NCBI GenBank assembly: GCA_016125385.1
Contig: WGLV01000033.1
Span: 1-64,000 of the forward strand
Source of the DNA: a bacterium
GTDB lineage: Bacteria > Hinthialibacterota > Hinthialibacteria > Hinthialibacterales > Hinthialibacteraceae
Direction: 5' to 3'
DNA length: 64,000 nt
Part shown: piece after piece, positions 44,891-47,783 of the stretch
How positions within the stretch are numbered: position 1 is the first letter of the stretch
How the letters are laid out: each line of letters starts with the position of its first letter
Program-made: the position numbers and the translations under genes
The notes under the pieces: model-generated
Told to the model about the DNA's origin: nothing
Database searches by the model: none
The model's input: only the letters and a program-made list of their open reading frames with translations

Positions 44891-45865
44891 TCAAACGCCT
44901 CCCCACACCTTGTTGATGAACTCGTCCTTCGTCAGGTCTTCTCCGATTTCATAGACGTTTCTTCCGGGTTCACGCTCATCGCTGATTACGTCGCCATCCC
45001 GAATATCCGGGATGAAATCGTCTTGAGAGAATGTGGGATTCACGTCGATCGAATCGATCTCGAATGTCGTTGAACTTACGGCGTCATTCGCGCTCCGCAT
45101 CAATTTTTCCTGAACGAAACACGGGATTGAGATCTCGCCGAAATTTCGGTAATTCGCAAACGTGATTTCCATATACATGTCGCTATCGAAATTCTTGCGG
45201 CGAACGAAAACAAGTTGCTTGTTTGAGACATCGATCACGAACTCGTATGAGGCTTTGGCGTCTTCCATTTTGACGTTTAAAACGGATTCACCATCCAGCG
45301 TTTGATCGGTTTGCGAGATTAATTGAAGCGGGTTGTCATTACCCGCGGCGGATTCTCTCAACCGTTCGATGATCTTTGAAAGCATTGTGTCCCGGAATCC
45401 GATAAACTGATCGGGGCGGATGATTGAAGCGATGTCATTGCCATCAGACAATGAATATTCCTTGGTATGTTTTTCAGGATTTTTGCCCACTTCTTCTAGC
45501 TGCGCTCTGCCAGTCCAGTAGCTGTTCATTGCATTACCCAGCATCGCCGACGCAGCCTGATCGCCCGGATCTTCAAATTGAAAAACAGCGTCTTGCGAGA
45601 AATACATCCTGCCGTTGATTTCATATTTCCACGCCATCGTACCGCTTCGGATATAAGGTCCATTGAACTTCATCCCCATCGCTTTGGGGAAATCCGGCAT
45701 CTTGTCACCGTAATTCACAAAGCGAGACAGCGCGGAGGCGGAGTAGATATTCTCTTTAGCGATCTGCTGTAACCGGCTCGCCTGGATGAATTCATCGCGT
45801 AACGGCTCCGCCAACGCGGCGTTGACTCCCACGAATAAAGCCACCGCAACAGCAATCAATATCAT
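44891..45865 (-). CDS. Secreted protein, possibly LolA/LolB-like fold
   Basis: A 324-residue exported protein with a signal peptide (MILIAVAVALFVGVNAALA). The mature part is beta-rich (WKYEINGRMYFSQDAVFQFE, SYEFVIDVSNKQLVFVRRKN) with a layout reminiscent of the outer-membrane lipoprotein-sorting family, but I see no firm motif. GAGGG lies just before the ATG. A sigma-70-type promoter is visible 86-114 bp upstream. Function unknown. Confidence 0.65.
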   Translation of the reverse strand: MILIAVAVALFVGVNAALAEPLRDEFIQASRLQQIAKENIYSASALSRFVNYGDKMPDFPKAMGMKFNGPYIRSGTMAWKYEINGRMYFSQDAVFQFEDPGDQAASAMLGNAMNSYWTGRAQLEEVGKNPEKHTKEYSLSDGNDIASIIRPDQFIGFRDTMLSKIIERLRESAAGNDNPLQLISQTDQTLDGESVLNVKMEDAKASYEFVIDVSNKQLVFVRRKNFDSDMYMEITFANYRNFGEISIPCFVQEKLMRSANDAVSSTTFEIDSIDVNPTFSQDDFIPDIRDGDVISDEREPGRNVYEIGEDLTKDEFINKVWGGV

Positions 45866-45979: not shown

Positions 45980-46019
45980 CAAAATTATTTACACGAAAAA
46001 TAAAGAAGTGGCGGAGGGA

Positions 46020-46049
46020 AAGACGCCCCTCACTGGGGAGGGGCGTCTT
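46020..46049 (-). terminator. Terminator hairpin containing the stop codon of the small ATPase-partner gene
   Basis: AAGACGCCCCTC (46020-46031) pairs perfectly with GAGGGGCGTCTT (46038-46049) over 12 bp with a six-base loop. The TGA stop (46030-46032) is within it. On the minus strand U- and C-rich sequence follows. Confidence 0.75.
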
Positions 46050-46281
46050 CCTTGCGGTTCAGTTCGAAGAGCAACGCCGTGCGGGCGCTGATATAACCGG
46101 AGAGGATTCCATCTTCAAAGTTAAAGCGGCCATTGTCGCGCAGGGCGTCGAAATCGTCTGAGTTGCGCGCGTCTTCCGGCGTTATGCCCGGCACGGACTT
46201 GCGGGCGATCTCAAGCACTTTCTTCTGCTGCTGCTCGATCATCCCGTCCAGCAGGGCGATGATCTCGTCCCGGTTCAGCAT
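46030..46281 (-). CDS. Small protein following the KAP-type ATPase gene
   Basis: An 83-residue, acidic, probably helical protein (MLNRDEIIALLDGMIEQQQK, then DALRDNGRFNFEDGILSGYI). The start at 46281 lies 8 bp after the ATPase stop, whereas a longer frame from 46332 would overlap the ATPase. The tight spacing and shared terminator imply that it works with the ATPase. No family is recognised. Confidence 0.65.
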   Translation of the reverse strand: MLNRDEIIALLDGMIEQQQKKVLEIARKSVPGITPEDARNSDDFDALRDNGRFNFEDGILSGYISARTALLFELNRKEDAPPQ

Positions 46282-46289
46282 CGCGACCG

Positions 46290-47783
46290 TCAGTTCAACA
46301 CGCGGCGCAGTACGCCGGAGCGATCGATCCACGAATTGCGGACGATATCGAACTGCGAGCGCGGGATGTTCCAGCGCGGGTCGTTCTCCGACAACTCGTT
46401 GGGCAGCGTCTTGACGTAATCGGAAAACATTTCCGAGAGAAAACCGAACGCATAGCGCGGCGTGCCAAGCGTGTTAAGCGTCTCTTTCAGGTAACCGATA
46501 TCGAAATCCTCGGCGAAAAAGTCGCTCAGCGCGACGGCCTTCGAGCCGGTCTTGATGCTCGACTGTAAGCGCTGGTTGGCGATTTCATACAGTTCCTGAC
46601 CCGACCATTTCAGTTCGGGGATGAGGTTCGATTTGTCGAGCCGCATACGCTTGAGCTGTTCGGGCGGCGCGTTGCGGTGAATCTTGTCGAGTTCGATGGG
46701 GAGAAACAGTTTCAGCCCCACGTTGGGGAACTGAAGCAGCTTGATATCGAGCAGTTTTTCAACGAAGGCGCGCATGGCGTCTTCGCGCGCGCTGATGAGG
46801 GTCGGCTCATCGATGCGATCCATCACGATGTAGACGCCTTCATAGCCGAATTCCTTGAGGATCTCCGTAAAGCGCTGGAGCAGCTGATAGCGCGGCGATT
46901 CATCCGACCCGCGCGGCAGGTTGTATTCTTTGCGTTCTTTCGGCGTCAGGCGATTTAACACCTCGCGCAACGCGGCGGTGTTTTTGGGCAGCGCCTTGAC
47001 CGCGCGGTCGGCGCGCGCCGCCATTGAGGCGGCGGTCATGGTGAACCACGCGAAGGGCAGCCATGTCCCCGCCAGAACGAGCCCGCCCAGCGCCAGCCAG
47101 AGCCATTTGGGCCCCGGCGCGGAGAACGACAACGGCAGCCAGGGCAACAGCATCAGCACCAGTCCGGCGAAACTCGCCACCGCGGCCGACGCCCAGCACA
47201 GGAACACGCGAAACTTGCCCAGCCCGAACTGTTTCATCAGGGTTTCGACGGTTTCAATCTGAGTGCGCTGGTTGGAGTTGTAATACATCGCGGCCAGCAG
47301 AATCAGATACACCTTTAATTTCTTGCTTAATCCGGAAGCGTTTTTCTTTCCATCGACGATCTGGTCGACCAGTTGAGACACGCCCAGCGAGAGGATGCAA
47401 TCGAGATGCTCGGCGATGCCCCAGCGCTGTATGACCTTGTCGGCGGCGTGGTCGTCGTTGCGCACGCCGATCGCGCGGCGGAACTGCGACATGTAGGGGT
47501 TGTAATCGATGTATTCAATCAGAAAGACGCGGTTGTCGGGGTTCTCCTGATTGTGCTGTTCCAGACGGCGGCGCATCATTAACCGCAAAGCGCTCTTTCC
47601 GCTGCCCTTCTCGCCGAAGATGATCGCCGGCGCCGGAATGCGCGGCGAACCGTACAACCGGTCAAAACTCCAGTGAACCGCCGTCGGCTTCAGGTCGCTC
47701 AGGATGCCGTCCTTGTCGGCGTCCTCGCAGGTGAACGGATCTTCTTGAAGGCCCCAAAAATCTCGCCAGGTTTGCGTAAACAT
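46290..47783 (-). CDS. KAP-type membrane P-loop ATPase
   Basis: A 497-residue protein. Walker A is GEKGSGKS (57-64). Two membrane helices (about 192-217 and 227-249) are inserted between Walker A and the Walker B-like VYIVMDRIDEP (317-327). That insertion is the hallmark of the KAP NTPase group, to which phage-exclusion protein PifA and animal Kidins220 belong. The N terminus (FWGLQEDPFTCED) and C terminus are otherwise unassigned. GAGGGAAT precedes the ATG. It is followed after 8 bp by a small gene. A defence or membrane-stress role is possible (inference), not shown. Confidence 0.75.
   Translation of the reverse strand: MFTQTWRDFWGLQEDPFTCEDADKDGILSDLKPTAVHWSFDRLYGSPRIPAPAIIFGEKGSGKSALRLMMRRRLEQHNQENPDNRVFLIEYIDYNPYMSQFRRAIGVRNDDHAADKVIQRWGIAEHLDCILSLGVSQLVDQIVDGKKNASGLSKKLKVYLILLAAMYYNSNQRTQIETVETLMKQFGLGKFRVFLCWASAAVASFAGLVLMLLPWLPLSFSAPGPKWLWLALGGLVLAGTWLPFAWFTMTAASMAARADRAVKALPKNTAALREVLNRLTPKERKEYNLPRGSDESPRYQLLQRFTEILKEFGYEGVYIVMDRIDEPTLISAREDAMRAFVEKLLDIKLLQFPNVGLKLFLPIELDKIHRNAPPEQLKRMRLDKSNLIPELKWSGQELYEIANQRLQSSIKTGSKAVALSDFFAEDFDIGYLKETLNTLGTPRYAFGFLSEMFSDYVKTLPNELSENDPRWNIPRSQFDIVRNSWIDRSGVLRRVLN

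Follow-up and report, generated by a model that had tools for sequence, protein, structure and literature searches.

A predicted membrane-anchored ATPase of the Hinthialibacteraceae with a KAP-like layout and kinship to the DS-41 and Sll1717 families

Membrane helices placed between the Walker A and Walker B motifs of a P-loop ATPase are characteristic of the KAP NTPases, such as PifA and Tmn, the latter being a KAP anti-phage NTPase with two membrane domains (PMC11846954). A helical insertion also precedes the Walker B strand in the AAA+ core of RdrA, where four soluble helices form a crown to which RdrB docks (PMC9994260). DS-41 is a validated E. coli anti-phage system (DefensePredictor, PMC13092281), and it has a curated NCBIfam model (DS41_1_antiphage, NF053860). 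A second NCBIfam family, ATPase_Sll1717 (NF047389), shows no hairpin between the two motifs in the members inspected here, which are patchily distributed and in some cases fused to other domains.

Here we compare these systems with a locus of the Hinthialibacteraceae (assembly GCA_016125385.1, contig WGLV01000033.1); the window that we analyzed is the whole stretch of 64,000 nucleotides from positions 1 to 64,000. Three genes on the minus strand, in the order P3, P1, and P2, are separated by gaps of 67 bp (P3 to P1) and 8 bp (P1 to P2). An earlier note had read P1 as a KAP-type ATPase and P2 as its coupled partner in a candidate membrane defense or stress module for which it knew no published system. 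With respect to the layout of P1 that last statement is too strong, since Tmn exists and is the defense protein nearest to P1 in this regard.

Architecture and kinship of the ATPase

P1 (46290-47783, minus strand) encodes a 497-amino-acid P-loop ATPase. Its Walker A motif, GEKGSGKS (residues 57-64, 47592-47615), shows no variation at G57, E58, G60, G62, and K63 across 27 orthologs, and the Walker B region (residues 316-326, 46806-46838) contains VMDRIDE at residues ∼320-326, with D322, R323, D325, and E326 of the DRIDE segment (322-326) likewise invariant. An RLDK motif and a sensor-2-like PR pair (P442/R443) are also invariant, so that Walker A, Walker B, and the sensor-2-like arginine are all conserved, as in AAA+ proteins of the ORC/Cdc6/RdrA-like kind. 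The AlphaFold2 model, built on the 27 orthologs (mean pLDDT 88.4, pTM 0.85), places two long helices, residues 190-215 (47139-47216) and 226-261 (47001-47108), between the Walker motifs. A hydropathy scan finds the first as a hydrophobic helix in all 27 orthologs and the second in most of them, which bears out this part of the earlier description. The two helices are joined by a short loop and their predicted cytoplasmic flanks are basic, a pattern that fits a membrane anchor lacking any external sensor domain. Conservation is lowest in the hairpin, with a mean column identity of 0.36 compared to 0.54-0.57 for the two ATPase halves.

Foldseek matched the model best to RdrA of RADAR (E 3.6e-3), followed by ORC, TnsC, and BrxC chains with TM-scores of ∼0.3; as no E value fell below 1e-3 and RdrA itself reached a TM-score of only 0.31, these matches back the AAA+ assignment only loosely. 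Searches of P1 against solved structures by sequence gave nothing significant, a viral fold library and PHROGs gave no match, and PADLOC returned marginal P-loop cross-matches only.

All 27 orthologs match both NF053860 (best E 3.9e-35) and NF047389 (best E 4.9e-21). The window P1 aligns to NF053860 across almost all of its ATPase (residues 11-458, E 1.3e-32), sharing with DS-41 an N-terminal PF...AD motif, a Walker A followed by LR, and a DxxDE Walker B region, and with the Sll1717 family the core and lid motifs. Its scores of 113 bits against a curated equivalog cutoff of 370 and 54 bits against a cutoff of 75, respectively, reach neither threshold, and we therefore regard it as a relative, and not a member, of either family as curated. 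The DS-41 model spans 351 positions compared to 448 residues of P1, consistent with an extra hairpin in the latter. Two relatives, one intact (L141) and one a broken copy (L144), align on both flanks of the hairpin with nothing that corresponds to it, and no membrane helix was found between Walker A and Walker B in the superfamily members inspected. Since the relatives appear soluble and hairpin-free, the KAP-like layout of P1 is best explained as an insertion in a non-KAP family, and by its sequence P1 would represent a membrane-anchored branch of the DS-41/Sll1717 superfamily.

Other members of this superfamily, candidate defense or regulatory ATPases, are encoded at L134:1792-4206, L137:8102-10492, L133:2683-5378, and L141:5419-6846, and among them occur a TIR-like or nucleotide-hydrolase-like N-terminal fusion, a SIR2-like neighbor, or an OmpR-type winged helix. 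The broken DS-41-like gene (L144:4343-5200, genome G105), which lacks membrane helices, is flanked by a transposase on one side and a tyrosine integrase on the other.

Distribution and genomic context

P1 is present as one copy in all six genomes of its family, the other five genera each holding an ortholog of 55-64% identity, and was found in none of the eight remaining genomes of its class. Beyond that class, the P1 profile gave two matches among 276 further diverse genomes. The phylum of these two matches, a second phylum, carries P1 in 73 of 392 genomes, and in one of its classes 120 of 199 genomes have one copy each, the match in one of the 120 being split into two pieces of a single frame. 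This phylum is probably Planctomycetota, as two Planctomycetota contigs carry close P1 relatives (47-51% identity) and share a downstream dynamin-like gene with one of its families (f248). Within that class of 199 genomes the gene tracks taxonomic families, being present in most of f141, f280, f317, and f324, and none of the f319 and f320 genomes listed has it. Among comparable genomes of the same class, P1 occurs in 37 of 58, while true KAP proteins are patchy (8 of 59). No match was found in 72,556 plasmid and 50,697 phage records. The conservation of P1 thus has a housekeeping character in one class of the second phylum, but in its own phylum it was seen in one family only.

In a phylogeny of P1, rooted by midpoint only, the six family members group together (100/99), with deep-branching lineages of the second phylum as their neighbors. 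This position, together with the restriction of P1 to one family of its own class, suggests as the simplest account one old horizontal transfer into the family ancestor followed by retention. Such a transfer would be compatible with an origin as a selfish or defensive gene. Patchy presence, plasmid or phage copies, and, in the window, recognized defense neighbors, as would mark a mobile defense gene, were not found; P1 is a clade-wise fixed single-copy gene, and its distribution is not defense-like.

In the window, P1 is accompanied by leuC and leuD (recognized by sequence), bshC, and genes for a SAM-dependent methyltransferase, a TPM-domain protein, a metallo-beta-lactamase-fold protein, and an ABC transporter pair. 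PADLOC recognized no defense genes among ten neighbors of P1; its matches comprised generic methyltransferase and ABC ATPase cross-matches and a marginal PDC-S09 match (E 4.7e-05). Other genera have pssA, ligA, or other metabolic genes beside P1. We considered a conserved neighborhood as a clue to function and set it aside, as the context varies among lineages and the links are local: pssA follows P1 in three of the family's genera, and in one deep lineage belonging to the second phylum (L008, L009, L053, L054, and L055) a gene for a dynamin-like GTPase (750-880 amino acids) lies downstream in convergent orientation. Seemingly conserved antisense open reading frames opposite P1 were discarded as shadows of the gene.

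Possible roles of the ATPase

The KAP interpretation, under which P1 would be a membrane anti-phage effector of the PifA/Tmn kind, draws on the shared placement of membrane helices between the two Walker motifs and on the precedent of Tmn in KAP-based defense. KAP membership was nevertheless rejected, because the KAP_NTPase model (PF07693) matches neither P1 (E ≤ 1) nor its 27 orthologs (E ≤ 0.01) and an hhalign comparison of the P1 family with 11 true KAPs covered no more than 43 columns, around Walker A, with a probability of 45. A KAP search of the whole P1-bearing genome did not return the P1 locus, the Walker B of KAPs is of a DDLDRC type as opposed to DRxDE in the P1 family, and the distributions differ as described above. 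On these sequence comparisons the KAP interpretation is largely refuted, and we consider it very improbable. In a different form of defense, P1 would be an anti-phage gene of the DS-41 kind that is fixed on the chromosome, is inherited with it, and works through an effector step at the membrane. The homology to a validated defense system and the defense-like settings of superfamily relatives (TIR-like fusion, SIR2-like neighbor, transposase and integrase) fit this idea, and the kinship with DS-41 keeps inherited immunity among the candidate roles of P1. It is not favored given a distribution in which nearly every genome of several families holds a single copy and other families hold none, with no plasmid or phage copies and no recognized defense genes beside P1 in the window, and we regard it as rather doubtful. 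A distant link to anti-phage proteins does survive of the proposed defense module, and P1, while kin to a validated anti-phage family, is probably not itself a mobile defense gene.

A further reading would make P1 and P2 the two genes of a dedicated module, an ATPase with a cognate regulator or toxin. The 8-bp spacing and the adjacency kept in four of the six family genomes (8 bp in G000, about 187 bp in G001, 14 bp in G002, and about 14 bp in G003, comprising two sister pairs on the tree) are in line with such coupling, but the other two genomes (G004 and G005) carry P1 without P2. Furthermore, a P2 profile found matches in 13 genomes of a diverse set of 280, including 9 in which no P1 was detected and the neighbors of P2 varied (e.g., tadA and genes for an acyl-CoA synthetase or for methyltransferase or NUDIX-like proteins), and matched none of 23 searched genomes of the second phylum, all 23 of which carry P1. 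Co-occurrence thus holds in part of the family only, the role of P2 as a dedicated partner is unsupported, and a two-gene module is in our judgment distinctly unlikely.

We instead hold that P1 is probably a membrane-anchored AAA+ ATPase of the DS-41/Sll1717 branch with a chromosomally fixed lineage function, potentially envelope or stress surveillance and possibly built-in phage immunity, rather than part of a mobile cassette. We infer that it could act as an oligomerizing switch at the inner membrane. The two-helix hairpin, which follows the second core strand and precedes the Walker B strand, would tether the ATPase domain to the inner membrane on its cytoplasmic side; binding of ATP would drive assembly of a ring or other multimer, so that the hairpins meet at the membrane, and hydrolysis would reset the assembly. 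In the AAA+ core, the hairpin and the crown of RdrA occupy the same stretch ahead of Walker B, and by analogy the hairpin may stand in place of an RdrA-type docking crown, although the insertion is soluble in RdrA (PMC9994260) and no RdrB-like partner was seen. A more specific history is put forward tentatively: a defense-family ATPase may have gained the hairpin, become a core gene in much of one phylum, and been transferred a single time into the ancestral lineage of the family represented in the window, serving there as an inner-membrane surveillance switch for built-in immunity or envelope stress.

The occurrence of membrane helices ahead of Walker B in a P-loop ATPase outside the KAP family implies that this layout alone is no basis for calling a protein a KAP NTPase or a defense protein. 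It also brings into view a well-conserved single-copy membrane ATPase across one large class, for which a planctomycete amenable to genetics would be a suitable host of study, should the phylum assignment prove right.

Small protein P2 and other flanking features

P2 (46030-46281, minus strand), an 83-amino-acid protein, is a real gene, as the earlier note supposed: orthologs 55-71% identical lie downstream of P1 in three other genera, and independent homologs occur elsewhere. Its AlphaFold2 model is a two-helix hairpin (pLDDT 91.6). The window P2 had no match in Pfam, and a fold search with it returned nothing informative (best E 3.0). The family consensus reads Q..K....P.LT.ED...P.D...L....F.(F/Y)EDG.L.G, with loci at 46030-46281 of the window, L128:7872-8114, L131:7916-8194, and L124-L130. 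P2 defines a widespread, apparently undescribed family unrelated to P1, and would be an independent helical small protein that in some genera only sits directly behind the ATPase gene in the same direction of transcription. In two genomes that appear chlamydia-like by gene content, a P2 homolog beside rpsO-pnp overlaps a tadA-like gene at the end of the latter.

A stem-loop with a 14-bp stem (46018-46051, minus strand) starts within the last codons of the P2 reading frame and was proposed as a terminator shared by P1 and P2. It is strong (-28.1 kcal/mol for a 71-nucleotide segment, z -4.8, with 0 of 200 shuffles as stable), but its 3' tail is UUUCCC with no clear U-tract, and this tail and the overlap with the end of P2 account for its absence from the terminators listed by the terminator scan. 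The stem-loop is thus no more than a plausible terminator.

Upstream of P1, the preceding membrane-anchored protein noted earlier is confirmed as P3 (47851-48453, minus strand), a 200-amino-acid reading frame with an N-terminal hydrophobic helix. A weak homolog (27% identity) takes the corresponding position in a single other genus (G001, L011:10305-10964), and P3 is at most a putative member of one unit with the ATPase. The P3 family appears to consist of secreted or membrane-anchored proteins with a KGP...YDENG-like pattern. Downstream on the same strand, positions 44891-45865 encode a predicted secreted DUF4292-like protein (E 0.0011, a score below the cutoff).
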